DNA from: an uncultured cyanobacterium
GTDB lineage: Bacteria; Cyanobacteriota; Cyanobacteriia; Cyanobacteriales; Geitlerinemataceae
Reading direction: 5' to 3'
Assembly: GCA_937899645.1 (NCBI GenBank)
Contig: CALCCD010000013.1
Span: forward strand, 1 to 64,000
DNA length: 64,000 nucleotides
In this document: positions 641 to 7,227 of the stretch, one piece after another
Numbering within the stretch: position 1 is the first letter of the stretch
Layout: each line of letters opens with the position of its first letter
Notes under the pieces: model-generated
What the model saw: the letters and a program-made list of their open reading frames with translations, nothing else
Database searches by the model: none
Told to the model about the DNA's origin: nothing
Position numbers and translations under genes: made by a program

Positions 641-711
641 ACCTTGATGACATCTGAAGTCAACAAGAGAATCTTCAGTCCGCTCGCGCGGCTTTGAGGG
701 TTCTTTTTTTT
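641..711 (+). ncRNA. Candidate small RNA with intrinsic terminator
   Basis: A stretch of about 70 nt that folds as two stem-loops. Stem 1 pairs CTTG-GAC (643-651) with GTC-CAAG (659-667). Stem 2 pairs GAATCTTCA (669-677) with its partner at 693-703, plus an inner CCGC/GCGG stem, and runs straight into eight T residues (704-711), a textbook Rho-independent terminator. CTGAAG (654-659) can also pair with CTTCAG (673-678), giving an alternative fold. It lies about 340 bp upstream of the IsiA-like genes on the same strand. It could be a free-standing regulatory RNA or a terminated leader. A link to the iron-stress sRNA IsaR1 is a guess from length and location only; I could not compare sequences. 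Confidence 0.5.
669..711 (+). terminator. Rho-independent terminator of the sRNA candidate
   Basis: A stem of nine base pairs (three G-U) with an inner four-pair GC stem, loop TCGC, followed by an eight-T tract. Confidence 0.65.
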
Positions 712-930
712 GGGGACGATTGCCCCCAGTGGCCGAAGACTGGGCAAGAGCAACAGTTTTTGTGAGATCGGAGGCAAAATCGGCGGCCAAATTTGCAGCA
801 GGGGGCAAGCCGCAAAACCGCGACTTTTCAAGCCTTTCGGCATCGGCGCACCGACCGAGTCAGCCCCTTCACATTCCGCAACGATTTTATTGCCAGATTT
901 TTTTAAATGTGGTCACATCAGTTAATGAGA

Positions 931-960
931 CAAGCATTCAATAATGTTTGCTGATGCTTG
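931..960. promoter_or_regulatory. Inverted repeat upstream of first antenna gene
   Basis: CAAGCAT (931-937) and ATGCTTG (954-960) form a perfect 7-bp inverted repeat with a 16-base spacer in an AT-rich stretch about 95 bp before the chosen start codon. It could be an operator or a leader hairpin. It does not clearly match the Fur-box consensus. Confidence 0.3.
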
Positions 961-1052
961 AGATTAGGGATTCGGCGGAGTTTCGCCAATCTTCGATTTC
1001 GCATTTGCCAACAGCTACTAATTCACTAAAACAGAGCGAGGAATCGCGAGGT

Positions 1053-2114
1053 ATGGACGGACTCTTTTGGACTCCACTCATGCGATCGCTGGGCTGGTCT
1101 TTTGAGGCTACGCCGGAAGCGGGCGCACCCTTGCTGGCGGGGAATATCCGCTTCAAGGATCTCTCGGGGCGCTTGCTGGGCGCACACGTGGCTCACGCCG
1201 GACTGATCGTGCTGTGGGCGGGAGCAATGACCCTGTTCGAGCTCGGGCGGTTCGACGCCAGCCTGCCGATGTACGAGCAGAATTTGATCTTGCTGCCGCA
1301 CCTGGCGACGCTGGGCATTGGGGTAGATGCGAGCGGCGCGGTGGTAGATACCTACCCCTACTACGCGATCGCAATGGTTCACCTGATTAGCTCGGCGGTG
1401 TTGGGCGCAGGTGGGATGTATCACGCAGTACTCGGCCCCGAGAAGCTCGACCTGAAAGGCTTCGGCTACGACTGGAAAGACGGCGGCAAGATGACCACCA
1501 TCCTTGGCTCGCACCTGGTGATGCTGGGGCTGGGCGCGCTGTTGTTGGTACTGAAGGCCACCCAGTACGGCGGTGTTTACGACCCAGTGGCCGAGCAGGT
1601 GCGACTAATCGATCCCAACCTCGATCCCGGTCGCATTTTCGGCTATTTGTTTGGCATCGGCCCGAACGGCTGGACGATTACCGGCATGGCCAGCGTGGAC
1701 AACATGGAGGACATCATCGGCGGTCACGTTTGGGTCGGCGCACTCTGCATTATTGGGGGCATTTTCCATATCGTCACCAAGCCGATGGGCTGGGCCAAGC
1801 AACGCCTGGTGTGGTCGGGCGAAGCGTACCTGTCCTACAGCCTTGGCGCGCTGGCGATCGCGGGATTCAGCGTGGCGGTATTCGTCTCGGTAAACACCGT
1901 GGCTTACCCGACGGCTTTTTACGGTCCGCTGGCGGGTACGGAAGAGTCGATTCGCACGGCGCTGTCGTCGGTTCACGCCACCCTTGGATTCCTGGCGCTA
2001 CTCGGGCACCTCTGGCACGCTTACCGGGCGATAAACGCTTCGGTCGGCAGCACCAAAGATACGCTGTTTGACTTCGTATTTTTCGACGAGTCCGAACAGC
2101 AGCGCGCGCTTTAA
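1053..2114 (+). CDS. IsiA/Pcb-family chlorophyll-binding antenna protein (copy 1)
   Basis: A six-helix thylakoid membrane protein of the CP43-like IsiA/Pcb family, which binds chlorophyll a and forms antenna rings or arcs around photosystem I. It has the family hallmarks in order: [15 protein letters not shown] (helix I), [57 protein letters not shown] and GHLWHAYRA in the last helix, with the conserved His ligands. The length, 353 residues, fits IsiA/Pcb and lacks the large lumenal loop of true CP43. I chose ATG 1053 because GAGGAA lies about nine bases upstream and because the extra residues of the longer frame (from 948) are not membrane-protein-like. Residues 1-20 ([15 protein letters not shown]) are an unusual N-terminus for the family. 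It is first of a four-gene antenna cluster. Confidence 0.9.
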
Positions 2115-2120
2115 AAGCTC

Positions 2121-2159
2121 CTGCATTTCGTGCAGATTCGTAACGTACGGTGCTTTTTT
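2121..2159 (+). terminator. Possible terminator after antenna copy 1
   Basis: CTGCA-TTTCG-TGCAG hairpin (2121-2135) soon after the stop codon, with a T-run (2154-2159) about 18 bases downstream. The gap makes it imperfect. If active, the downstream antenna genes need their own promoter in the 250-bp gap. Confidence 0.3.
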
Positions 2160-2363
2160 CTCAACGCTTTTGTCGCGTTTTCGTAACTTTTCTGTAAGTT
2201 TTTTCTCGCATTCGGGGTCTGCGCGTCATATTGACCAAAGCGGTGAGATCTCGCTGGCGCACGCTATCTGCGGGCGCTCCGACCTTCTGGCAATACGTCG
2301 CGTCGGTTCCGAATTTTGCAAGAACCCCTCTGCAAAACCCCTTGTAACAGGACTCTCTTTGCT

Positions 2364-3392
2364 ATGGCGATCGCCACAGAACCTCTTTCTTCAATTCCTT
2401 GGCGAGCGGGTAATGCCCGTCTCGTCGATCTTTCCGGTAAGCTGCTCGGGGCGCACGTCGCCCATGCCGGCCTGATCGTGCTCTGGGCGGGGGCTTTCAC
2501 CCTGTTCGAGCTGAGCAACTTCGATCCGTCTCTACCGATGTACGAGCAAGGCCTGATCCTGCTGCCGAACCTGGCGCGACTGGGTATCGGCATCGGCCCA
2601 GACGGCGCGATCGACACCTATCCGTACTTCGCGATCGGTGTCGTTCACTTGATTAGCTCCGCCGTTCTCGGCGCGGGCGGCATCTTCCACTCCATCAAAG
2701 GCCCCAACAAGCTCGAGGAGAAATTCCCGGCTTACGGCTACAGCTGGAAAGACACCAACAAGATGACCAATATTCTGGGCATCCACCTGGTGCTGCTGGG
2801 CATCGGCGCGCTGATGCTGGTAGCGAAGGCGATGTTCTTCGGTGGTGTCTACGATCCGGCGATCCACGCCACGCGCGTTATCGAAAGTCCCACCGCCAAT
2901 CCCGCCACGATCTTTGGCTACTTCTTCGCACCGAAGAACCCGTTCTGGTTGGCTGGTGTCGATAGCCTCGAGGATGTGGTCGGCGGGCACCTCTGGATCG
3001 GCGTCACGCTGATTCTCGGTGGGCTCTGGCACATTTCCACTAAACCGCTGGGCTGGACGAAAAACCTGTTCGTCTGGTCGGGTGAAGCGTATCTGTCCTA
3101 CAGCATCGGCGCGGTTAGCCTGATGGCCTTTGTGGCGACGCTATTCGTGTCGGTGAACTCGCTGGTGTTTCCTACCGAGTTTTTCGGCCCGACGCTGTAT
3201 CTGTCCTTCGATCGCTTCCCGGTGTTCCTAAGTCCGGATGGCGTCAACACCAGTCGCGTTTGGCTGGCAAACGCCCACTTCTGGCTCGGCTTCTTCTTCC
3301 TGCAAGGCCACATTTTCCACGCGCTGCGGGCTGCGGGCTACAGCTTTAAGGAAGGTCGCGTACTCGAATCGACTCGTGGGGTTCTGGACTAA
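2364..3392 (+). CDS. IsiA/Pcb-family chlorophyll-binding antenna protein (copy 2)
   Basis: A second CP43-like six-helix antenna protein, 342 residues. The classic IsiA-like order is present: [78 protein letters not shown] and [14 protein letters not shown] near the C-terminus. I chose ATG 2364 ([10 protein letters not shown]) because the longer frame from 2316 adds only Cys-rich residues unlike the family. The stop codon overlaps the next start by one base (TAATG), so translation of the IsiA-PsaL fusion is probably coupled to this gene. By family knowledge it collects light for photosystem I, often under iron limitation. Of the three it looks closest to ordinary IsiA, but that needs a phylogeny. 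Confidence 0.92.
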
Positions 3393-4966
3393 TGACTGTT
3401 GCAAAATCTAATCCACTTAAGCCGCTTGGCTTTACGTCCGATACTGCCGATCCGAACGCCTTTGTGGCGAACTCGGTCGATCCCTACTCCTGGTGGGCGG
3501 GCAATTTTCGCTTCGTGGATCTGTCGGGCAAGCTGCTCGGCGCGCATATCGCCCACGCGGCGTTGATCGTCCTCTGGGCGGGCGCGATGACGTTCTTCGA
3601 GCTGTCTCGCCTCGATCCCAACCTGCCGATGTACGACCAGAACCTGATCCTGTTGCCGCACCTGGCGGCGCTGGGTATCGGGGTCGGTGAAGGCGGCGCG
3701 ATCGTCAACACCTATCCGTTCTTCGCGATCGGTGCGGCGCACCTGGTCGCCTCCGCATTTTTGGGCGCGGGCGGGATTTACCACGCCGTTCTCGGCCCCG
3801 AGAAGCTGGACGTTAAAGGTTTCGGCTACGACTGGGAAGACGGTCGCAAGATGACCACGATTCTCGGTTCGCACCTGGTGCTGCTCGGTGCGGGCGCGCT
3901 GCTGCTGGTTATCAAGGCAACGAACGTTGGCGGTTTGTTCGATCCGGCGATCGGCGACGTTCGCCTCGTGACCGAACCGACTCTCAATCCCCTGCGCATC
4001 TTCGGCTATATCGTCGGCATTACGCCCGATGGCTGGACGCTGAAGGGCATGGCGGCGGTCAGCAACCTCGAGGACGTCGTCGGCGGCCACATTTGGATCG
4101 GCGCGATCTGCATCCTCGGTGGCGTTTGGCACATCGCGTCGGAGCCGACGCGCTGGGCGAAGGGTCTGTTCGTCTGGTCGGGCGAAGCGTACCTGGCCTA
4201 TTCCCAAGCGGCGCTGGGCTACATGGGTATCTTTGCCGCCTACTTCGTGTGGGTGAACGGCACGGTGTACCCGGAAGCGTTCTACGGTCCGACGGAGCAG
4301 TACTTCTCCGAGGCGGGAACGATTACGCCACGTACTTGGTTGATGCTCTTCCAGCTGATCTTTGCCGGTCTGCTGCTGGCGGGCCACATCTGGCACGGTC
4401 TGCGATCGCGGGCGGTCGCGCTGGGCTTCAGCTTCAGCCAAATGCAGTTCAACATGGGCGCAGTTTACGGAGATCGCCAGTTCAACAGCCAGCCGCTGAT
4501 GAGTGGCCTGGTGCAGCCGCCGATGGACGATCCGCAAATCGGAACGTTCGACACCGCCATTAGCGGCAGTCAACTGACCAAAACTTGGGTCAAAAATCTG
4601 CCGATCTACCGCGAAGGTCTCGCGCCGATCGCGCGTGGCTTAGAGATCGGCATGGCCCACGGCTACCTGCTGCTCGGCCCCTTCCTGAAGCTCGGCCCTC
4701 TGCGCGATACCGATGACGCGCTGCTGGCAGGCTTCGGTGGCGCGTCCGGACTGGTGGTCATCCTCAGCTTCTGCATGTTTATCTACGGTTTGGCGGTATT
4801 CCGCGGCCGTACGCAGCCGGTGGGCATCCTGCCGGACAACATGCAAACCCTCAAGGGCTGGAGCCTGTTTAACTCCGGCTTTATCGTCGGTGGTCTCGGT
4901 GGTGTTATCTTCGCCAGCTTTATTCTGCTGGAGATCGCACGCGCTGGAATCACGTCGATCGGCTAG
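3392..4966 (+). CDS. IsiA-PsaL fusion antenna protein
   Basis: A 524-residue fusion. Residues about 30-350 form a complete CP43-like antenna ([85 protein letters not shown]). Residues about 385-524 match photosystem I subunit Psa[48 protein letters not shown], then [19 protein letters not shown]. PsaL holds photosystem I trimers or tetramers together, so the fusion would plug chlorophyll antenna into the PsaL position or replace PsaL in a modified photosystem I. Such fusions are known in some cyanobacteria. Start and stop are clear, and the start overlaps the previous stop. Whether a free psaL exists elsewhere cannot be seen here. Confidence 0.93.
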
Positions 4967-5020
4967 ACCAAATCGCACCAAATCGCACGACTGTTCTTCG
5001 CAGCCATGCGCGACGTATTG

Positions 5021-5088
5021 AAACCTTCGGGGTCCGAACCACTGCGACCGGCTAACGCCGCAAGCTTTCGATCGGGCCCCTGAGGTTT
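5021..5088. repeat. Imperfect hairpin between IsiA-PsaL and cpcL
   Basis: Arms AAACCTTCGGGG (5021-5032) and CCCCTGAGGTTT (5077-5088) pair at 10 of 12 positions around a 44-base loop. No T-run follows. It may partly separate expression of cpcL from the antenna genes or act as a stabilising 3' structure. Confidence 0.35.
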
Positions 5089-5127
5089 GCGTCAATCCCG
5101 ATTCATTCGCAATTTAAGAAACTAACG

Positions 5128-5835
5128 ATGGCACTTCCTCTTCTCAACTACCCCCCCAGCAGCCAAAACCAGCGAGTGAAAGGGTTTGAAGTCCCTGGTG
5201 ACGAACAGCCCCGTCAGTATGCGCTCGAAGCTCCGTTCTCCGACTCGCAGGTGTCGGATGCGATCGCAGCGGCGTATCGCCAAATCTTTAACGAGCAGCA
5301 GTCGATCTCCTTCAACCGCCAGCCCGCCCTCGAATCGCAGCTACGCCAAGGCCGCATCACCGTGCGCGGCTTTATTCGCGGTCTGCTGCTGTCCGAGTCG
5401 TTCCAGCGGATGAACTTCGACACGAACAGCAACTACCGCTTCGCGGAGCTGTGCGTCCAGCGGGTGTTGGGCCGCGCGGTTTACAACGAGAAAGAGAAGC
5501 TCGCCTGGTCGATCGTCATTGCGACCAAGGGCGTTGTTGGCTTTGTGGACGAGCTACTGGCCACCGACGAGTATCTCGAAGCGTTCCGCGATGACACCGT
5601 GCCTTACCAGCGCCGCCGCATCTTGCCCCAGCGCGGCCAGGGCGAGCTGCCGTTTGCTCGGATGGCGCGCTACGACCGCAACCACCTCGAGCGGCTCTAC
5701 AGCTCGGGGCAGCTGCGCAAGTTCGACAATGGCGTCGTCGATCGCTCTGCCACGGTGTACCGTCGTGCGGTGGTACTCACGTCGATTTCGGCGATCGTCT
5801 TCCTGCTAGCCACCCTCGCGGCAGCGATCGGCTAG
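5128..5835 (+). CDS. cpcL: CpcL-type (CpcG2) phycobilisome rod linker with membrane anchor
   Basis: A 235-residue linker polypeptide. Residues about 15-175 are the phycobilisome linker domain of the CpcG type (opening MALPLLNYPPSSQNQRV; internal QPALESQLRQGRITVRGFIR; conserved YNEKEKLAWSIVIATKGVVG). Residues about 212-234 are a hydrophobic stretch (VVLTSISAIVFLLATLAAAI), the membrane anchor that separates CpcL from ordinary core-bound CpcG. By family knowledge CpcL holds core-less phycocyanin rods on photosystem I. Its place directly after two IsiA-like genes and an IsiA-PsaL fusion fits a shared job in feeding photosystem I. It starts at ATG 5128, 161 bp after the fusion gene. A weak RBS is likely in the AAGAAACTAACG leader. 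Confidence 0.92.
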   Translation: MALPLLNYPPSSQNQRVKGFEVPGDEQPRQYALEAPFSDSQVSDAIAAAYRQIFNEQQSISFNRQPALESQLRQGRITVRGFIRGLLLSESFQRMNFDTNSNYRFAELCVQRVLGRAVYNEKEKLAWSIVIATKGVVGFVDELLATDEYLEAFRDDTVPYQRRRILPQRGQGELPFARMARYDRNHLERLYSSGQLRKFDNGVVDRSATVYRRAVVLTSISAIVFLLATLAAAIG

Positions 5836-6091: not shown

Positions 6092-6634
6092 ATGACCCAC
6101 TCAACCATTCAACGTGCTGGGCTCGGCCTGCTCTCGATCGCGGCCGTTTCACTCGCTGCTTGCGGACAAACCGCAGAGGGCGGCTACCCGCAGAATGCCG
6201 TTGATAACTTTACCGAGGGCTGTTTGGGTAGCGGCTTTGACTTCGCGGATGAAATTTGTTCCTGCACGATCGACAAGATTCAGGCGAACTACAGCTTCGA
6301 TGAGTTCAAAGAGATGAACGAAGCGGTCAACGAGGGGGGCGAGCTGCCGATCGAGATGCTCCAGCTGACGGGTTCCTGCTACAGCGAAATTGCGGCCGAG
6401 AAGGGCGCGCCGCCGTATCCGGCCCAAGTGACCGACAATATCCTCGACGGCTGCATGGCAGGCAGCGACGGTAACGAGCAGGTTGCAGCGGCTTGCGCGT
6501 GCGGCGTCGAGCAAGTCCAGGAAACGTATACATTCTCGGAGTTTATGGCGATCGACCGGGCAGCGACCAGCGGCGAAGAGCCTCCGGCAGAGTTCCAAGA
6601 AATTTGGCAGACCTGTTTCGAGCAGGCAGGCTAG
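6092..6634 (+). CDS. Lipoprotein with a duplicated four-Cys module
   Basis: A 180-residue exported lipoprotein of unknown function. The N-terminus (IQRAGLGLLSIAAVSLAAC) is a signal peptide ending in the lipobox LAAC, so Cys24 should carry the lipid. The mature part is an internal duplication. Residues about 36-100 (DNFTEGC, then ICSCTIDKIQANYSFDEF, then GSC) and about 110-177 (DNILDGC, then ACACGVEQVQETYTFSEF, then QTC) share the pattern C-x(n)-CxC-x(n)-C with the same YxFxEF block. The Cys could form disulfides or bind metal. It has its own promoter region with a TAAAGT-like -10 near 6022. No named family recognised. Confidence 0.75.
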   Translation: MTHSTIQRAGLGLLSIAAVSLAACGQTAEGGYPQNAVDNFTEGCLGSGFDFADEICSCTIDKIQANYSFDEFKEMNEAVNEGGELPIEMLQLTGSCYSEIAAEKGAPPYPAQVTDNILDGCMAGSDGNEQVAAACACGVEQVQETYTFSEFMAIDRAATSGEEPPAEFQEIWQTCFEQAG

Positions 6635-6858: not shown

Positions 6859-7227
6859 ATGACCCGCACTCATAACGTCCGCATTCACCACCGCCAAACG
6901 GACACCTATTACACCGTTCAGGCGAACGAAGACCGCTATATCCTCCACACTGCGGAGAACCAGGGAGCAGAGCTGCCTTTCCTCTGTCGGAACGGAGCTT
7001 GCACGAGCTGTGCGGTGCGGGTGCTGTCGGGCGAGCTAGACCAGGACGAAGCGATGGGCCTGTCGCCGGAGCTGCAAGAGAAGGGCTACGCGCTGCTCTG
7101 CGTCAGTCACGCGAAGTCGGATTTGGTGGTGGAAACCCAGGATGAGGATGAGGTGTACGAGCAGCAGTTCGGCAAGCACTTTGCGAAAGGTCGTGTCTTT
7201 TTTGGGATTCCCATTGAAGACGAGTAG
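6859..7227 (+). CDS. [2Fe-2S] ferredoxin with C-terminal extension
   Basis: A 122-residue plant-type ferredoxin. The cluster ligands are in CRNGACTSC (C-x4-C-x2-C) and the later LLCVSH Cys. Unlike the main photosynthetic ferredoxin it has a basic N-terminus and about 25 extra C-terminal residues (VYEQQFGKHFAKGRVFFGIP), which marks a low-abundance specialist ferredoxin type seen widely in cyanobacteria. Its redox partner is unknown. ATG 6859 is the natural start, with no strong RBS. A convergent terminator hairpin at 7282-7312 separates it from the helicase. The photosynthetic ferredoxin itself is at 51271-51570, so the two are distinct paralogues in one window. Confidence 0.9.
   Translation: MTRTHNVRIHHRQTDTYYTVQANEDRYILHTAENQGAELPFLCRNGACTSCAVRVLSGELDQDEAMGLSPELQEKGYALLCVSHAKSDLVVETQDEDEVYEQQFGKHFAKGRVFFGIPIEDE

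Follow-up and report, generated by a model that had tools for sequence, protein, structure and literature searches.

The 64,000-nucleotide window (the whole stretch of cyanobacterial DNA analysed here) carries near its start what is very probably an iron-starvation photosystem I (PSI) antenna cluster of the isiA2-isiA3-isiA4-cpcG2 kind. Four consecutive genes on the + strand encode, in this order, two IsiA-type proteins, an IsiA-PsaL fusion and the membrane-anchored rod linker CpcL. An earlier note on this DNA had proposed just this composition, which is borne out by Pfam and TIGR03041 profiles as well as by the same gene order in about 30 other genomes from several families, the latter excluding a chance arrangement. 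The kind of cluster is already known, and the note had rightly pointed to a similar one in an iron-stressed Leptolyngbya: strain JSC-1 is reported to possess isiA2-isiA3-isiA4-cpcG2-isiA5 (PMC12090762). New here is that the cluster CpcL and the IsiA-PsaL fusion are, judging from their sequences, special versions of their families which co-occur in many species.

The isiA2-type gene 1 (1053..2114, 353 aa) and the isiA3-type gene 2 (2364..3392, 342 aa) are separated by 249 bases. Gene 2 overlaps by one base with the isiA4-type fusion, gene 3 (3392..4966, 524 aa), whose start lies on the stop of gene 2 (TAATG), and after a further 161 bases follows gene 4, cpcL (5128..5835, 235 aa; cpcG2 in the literature). 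Both gaps leave room for separate promoters. Types 2, 3 and 4 were assigned from gene order and by comparison with a locus of Trichodesmium erythraeum whose genes belong to the same clades. Genes 1 to 3 all match the PSII family PF00421 (E 1e-67 to 1e-74, Pfam), and genes 1 and 2 together with the N-terminal part of gene 3 exceed the cut-off of the IsiA/Pcb subfamily TIGR03041, while scoring far below that for CP43 (psbC). Their IsiA parts comprise 353, 342 and about 350 aa, compared with the 468-codon frame of the organism's own PsbC, and in the CP43 profile the C-terminal part is matched onward with the loop columns absent; these are, in other words, six-helix CP43-like proteins of the IsiA/Pcb family devoid of the large lumenal E loop. 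Among the matches listed, the nearest solved relative of gene 2 is chain 2 of PDB 9ZJT, a structure with four kinds of IsiA chain that also contains PsaB. Elsewhere in the genome, psbB and psbC are present, and a classical isiA1 is followed by a flavodoxin gene (isiB), thus forming a separate isiA-isiB operon.

The fusion is a single open frame with no internal stop, in which an IsiA domain (residues ~30-352) is followed by a PsaL domain (~374-513). The latter is complete (PF02605 at residues 374-513, E 1.2e-50, Pfam), in line with the earlier note, which had seen a whole PsaL in it. Such fusions are named IsiA4 in Leptolyngbya JSC-1, IsiA2 in Anabaena and CBPV in Nodularia. The best solved match is chain 1 of PDB 7Y3F (E 9.8e-167), the PSI-monomer-IsiA complex of Anabaena sp. 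PCC 7120, in which the PsaL-like domain of the fusion replaces PsaL and blocks oligomers, the IsiAs being located on the PsaA side (PMC9938196). This argues against the fusion being an antenna added beside PsaL, as had been assumed, and the idea of rods attached at the PsaL side of PSI is not directly supported here. A search of the genome for a separate psaL, which the note had suggested, found one on another contig, directly downstream of psaB. A separate psaL is in fact kept in all 22 genomes checked, 20 of which contain a fusion, as would be expected if PsaL is a replaceable subunit.

Gene 4 contains a rod linker domain at residues 38-162 (PF00427, PBS_linker_poly, E 1.1e-42, Pfam) and has a hydrophobic C-terminus (Kyte-Doolittle 2.42 across 19 residues), which is predicted as a single helix at 207-234 (block pLDDT 83-94). 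Since it ends in this hydrophobic helix, it is CpcL, as previously supposed, and not a rod-core CpcG; the organism's own CpcG1, encoded on another contig, is without such a C-terminal helix. Besides this one rod-core linker, the genome encodes a rod linker and ApcE, and the cluster CpcL is the sole CpcL found in it. The combination of PF00427 with a C-terminal membrane helix is shared with the CpcL phycobilisomes of Synechocystis (CpcG2, PDB 8HFQ) and Anabaena (CpcL, PDB 9WD5, 9W4J and 9W7K). CpcLs of other systems bind phycocyanin rods to PSI, and by analogy that of the window may serve as such a connector.

For the survey, genome contigs were searched for matches to the C-terminal portion of the fusion, and the best 80 of 374 loci were kept, 30 of them 59-73% and 50 at most 51% identical to the fusion of the window. 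Together with loci from further genomes, and with neighbourhoods annotated, this yielded a table of 95 fusion loci, among which a few genomes are possibly counted twice. They fall into two clades, A (n = 32, the window included) and B (n = 63). In clade A, CpcL lies downstream in 31 of 32 loci (the exception being locus L087), an isiA2-type gene is equally frequent (the exception, L096, is cut by a contig end), and so is a long linker within the fusion (all except L052). Clade B has no isiA2-type gene in any of its 63 loci and a flavodoxin gene nearby in 52, although these counts are not natural frequencies, as keeping only the best 80 of 374 loci undersampled this clade. Of 194 genomes drawn evenly from across the phylum, about 18 contained the fusion and two (that of the window and G123) the four-gene form. 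The Anabaena and Nostoc loci belong to clade B: like the window, Anabaena PCC 7120 has IsiA-type genes and a nine-helix IsiA-PsaL fusion protein, but the linker is short, the IsiA2-type gene is missing, and instead of CpcL there is usually isiB (flavodoxin) at the locus.

A phylogeny of the three IsiA-like proteins, another suggestion of the earlier note, reveals how the gene types are related. In the IsiA-domain tree, whose picture matches that of a quick tree made before, separate groups are formed by clade-A fusions (100/99), isiA2-type genes (100/100) and clade-B fusions (98/95), and isiA1 and psbC likewise form one group each. Clade-A fusions and isiA2-type genes group together (98/88), and a single group (100/99) unites every fusion with isiA2, whereas the fusions without isiA2 do not form one. 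Because IsiA2 thus falls inside the fusions, it is probably a fusion duplicate that lost PsaL. The simplest reading of the tree would be a single fusion event, after which a duplicate shed its PsaL domain and became IsiA2; the alternative is two separate fusions. At two further loci (L067, 7066-8139; L070, 5843-6949), genes of the fusion type yielded no PsaL domain, which may represent more independent losses.

Closest in kind among the described systems are those of Trichodesmium and Leptolyngbya. In Trichodesmium erythraeum, isiA2-isiA3-isiA4-cpcG2 corresponds to Tery_2483-2486, and upon addition of iron the three isiA transcripts fall more than 300-fold and cpcG2 30-fold (PMC12090762). One T. 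erythraeum locus (L073) contains relatives of all four window genes in the same clades, with identities of 75% for gene 1, 76% for gene 2, 61% for CpcL and 70% for the PsaL domain, but with a gap of about 1.5 kb before cpcL where the window has 161 bases. The Trichodesmium cluster is reported to be syntenic with that of Leptolyngbya JSC-1, which was described by Shen, Gan and Bryant (2016) and, according to PMC12090762, rises about 500-fold when iron is limiting. JSC-1 has the same gene kinds and order as the window, and its IsiA4 includes a PsaL domain (PMC12090762 and PMC9938196); compared by description and not by sequence, it differs in the isiA5 after cpcG2, a gene type that is absent behind cpcL in the window.

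From these systems, a working model can be proposed. Scarce iron would cause the four genes to be expressed together, and the PsaL domain of the IsiA4-type fusion would, by analogy with Anabaena, occupy the PsaL site of a PSI monomer. A fusion in this site would prevent trimers or tetramers and hold in place the IsiA with which an antenna belt starts, and IsiA2 and IsiA3, with their chlorophyll, would lengthen this belt. The cluster CpcL, in turn, would anchor a phycocyanin rod on the membrane, supplying further energy to the same PSI pool, and the outcome would be fewer iron-costly PSI cores with a larger antenna per core. That rod and chlorophyll belt share one core, and that such a complex assembles in this organism, we infer. 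The single PSI form with both antennas which the earlier note had envisaged is plausible given the co-induction of the genes in Trichodesmium on iron loss and the association of Anabaena CpcL with monomeric and dimeric PSI upon iron starvation (attributed to Shimizu 2023). The note had also held that the joint structure is not known, and this still appears to hold: no complex with both IsiA and CpcL was found, and PDB 9WD5, which contains CpcL together with Anabaena PsaB, is absent among the IsiA-like PDB chains listed (the 60 best matches and up to seven additional codes).

It is quite possible, if short of probable, that the two antennas are co-regulated but serve separate PSI pools, with IsiA-fusion monomers on the one hand and CpcL rods on PsaL-containing oligomers (or linked to NDH-dependent cyclic flow) on the other. 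The retained psaL would suit such a division, as would the persistence of PSI tetramers in Anabaena during iron deficiency (PMC9938196), the binding of CpcL to PSI tetramers and dimers in Anabaena heterocysts, and the CpcL-PsaB structure 9WD5 mentioned above. Conversely, under iron starvation the CpcL of Anabaena accompanies monomers and dimers of PSI but not tetramers (attributed to Shimizu 2023).

A further point against separate pools is the identity of the cluster CpcL itself. The 30 cluster CpcLs in the linker tree form one clade (99/97), with one change compared with 23.3 in shuffles, and outside it are other membrane-anchored CpcLs, several of them from the same genomes, and rod-core linkers, many likewise of these genomes; the tree leaves out the Synechocystis CpcG2 sequence. 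Their anchor is distinct too, with a motif of approximately DxSAxVYRK followed by a short helix and often an APK or SPK end, while other CpcLs end differently. That this clade accompanies clade-A fusions at 31 of 32 loci suggests a dedicated partner. CpcL-like genes also occur upstream of the isiA3-type gene at three clade-B loci, namely in Adonisia turfae (L123, 7003-7728), Cyanothece SIO2G6 (L135, 1045-1782) and Leptolyngbya PCC 7375 (L124, 3-497). The two complete ones have a different membrane anchor and are placed outside the cluster-CpcL clade, so that the linkage of CpcL and fusion may have arisen more than once.

On the side of the fusion, the long linker of clade A is due to an insertion of about 22 residues (4442..4510, + strand) located within residues 351-373, after helix VI of the IsiA domain and before the PsaL domain, its exact edges varying with the alignment. 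All but one of the 32 clade-A fusions have it and none of the 63 in clade B, and the distance between two fixed motifs amounts to 66-67 residues in 31 clade-A fusions compared with 41-54 in clade B. The consensus is approximately FSxMKFNPxALxGDTQFNxxPLxxGIVQP, with several positions invariant in clade A. In CP43 and PsaL, the ends that are joined here face the cytosol. By this homology, the insertion is predicted to lie on the rod-bearing side of the membrane and is, on circumstantial grounds, a candidate site of contact with the cluster CpcL. Hence we suggest, tentatively and with more doubt than confidence, that the clade-A fusion and the CpcL of the cluster belong together as dedicated partners, that the insertion docks CpcL or the rod, and that one PSI monomer would carry a chlorophyll belt together with a phycocyanin rod in a fixed place. 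Being almost constant inside one clade, insertion and CpcL count as roughly one event each, and their two exceptions differ: L087 has the clade-A insertion and no CpcL, and L052 has CpcL and no insertion. An AlphaFold prediction of the fusion (with 22 clade-A sequences) had a mean pLDDT of 47.8, too poor for judging the fold or the position of the insertion.

Ocean photosynthesis is widely iron-limited, and how cyanobacteria stretch few iron-rich PSI cores is an active question. Structures of PSI with chlorophyll antenna (7Y3F, 9ZJT) and with rod antenna (9WD5) have apparently been solved apart. The co-travelling special CpcL and fusion point to species in which a joint complex might exist, namely Leptolyngbya PCC 6406, Trichodesmium, Okeania and Nodosilinea, and the insertion names a possible contact for CpcL.

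Concerning regulation, we consider it unlikely that the cluster of this organism responds to low light or light colour instead of iron stress, with CpcL and Pcb-like antennas raised by other signals. In the upstream region of the cluster (703..1052, + strand), the best Fur-box-like site before gene 1 scores 8/14, no better than shuffles, while the isiA1 of the same genome, which already has its own isiA-isiB operon, has an 11/14 site; in Chroococcidiopsis, moreover, white light raises a related fusion (Chro_2988) and its neighbour to about 80-fold of their abundance under far-red light. However, the clusters of the same order studied so far, in Trichodesmium and Leptolyngbya JSC-1, respond strongly to iron. 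Furthermore, a Fur-box-like palindrome, TGAGAATNATTCTCA, scored over 14 positions, is matched at 11 or more of them in the region before isiA2 at 20 of the 30 loci searched, versus 1.65 expected from dinucleotide shuffles, a contrast that overstates the evidence, as the loci are related and the form of the motif was chosen after matches to related forms had been seen. With no Fur-like site at the window cluster itself, we infer its iron control from relatives.

Finally, the cluster might be decaying, or a horizontally acquired leftover, and have no function in the strain. This would fit the patchy distribution (no fusion was found in two incomplete genomes of the same genus, and the only other fusions found in the family are of the shorter-linker kind seen in clade B and 55% identical to that of the window), but is very improbable, as all four frames are intact and the residues invariant in relatives are retained. 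This patchiness within the family could reflect horizontal gain or loss.

Several features flank the cluster. Downstream, a gene at 6092-6634 encodes a protein of 180 aa whose N-terminus is lipoprotein-like and whose two halves resemble each other, a CxC pair occurring in both; it has no Pfam or NCBIfam match and, having no relatives among the other fusion loci, was rejected as a cluster member. The same applies to a gene resembling plant-type 2Fe-2S ferredoxins (6859-7227, 122 aa, TIGR02008 barely over the cut-off), which lies 1 kb beyond the end of the cluster and has no relative at that place in other clusters. The window begins at the contig end, and about 1 kb of sequence precedes gene 1. 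This contains a possible small gene of about 70 codons on the minus strand (236-441), divergent from the cluster, and, some 90-120 bases upstream of gene 1, an inverted repeat (931-960, CAAGCAT...ATGCTTG, with 16 bases between the arms) that is a possible regulatory hairpin or operator.
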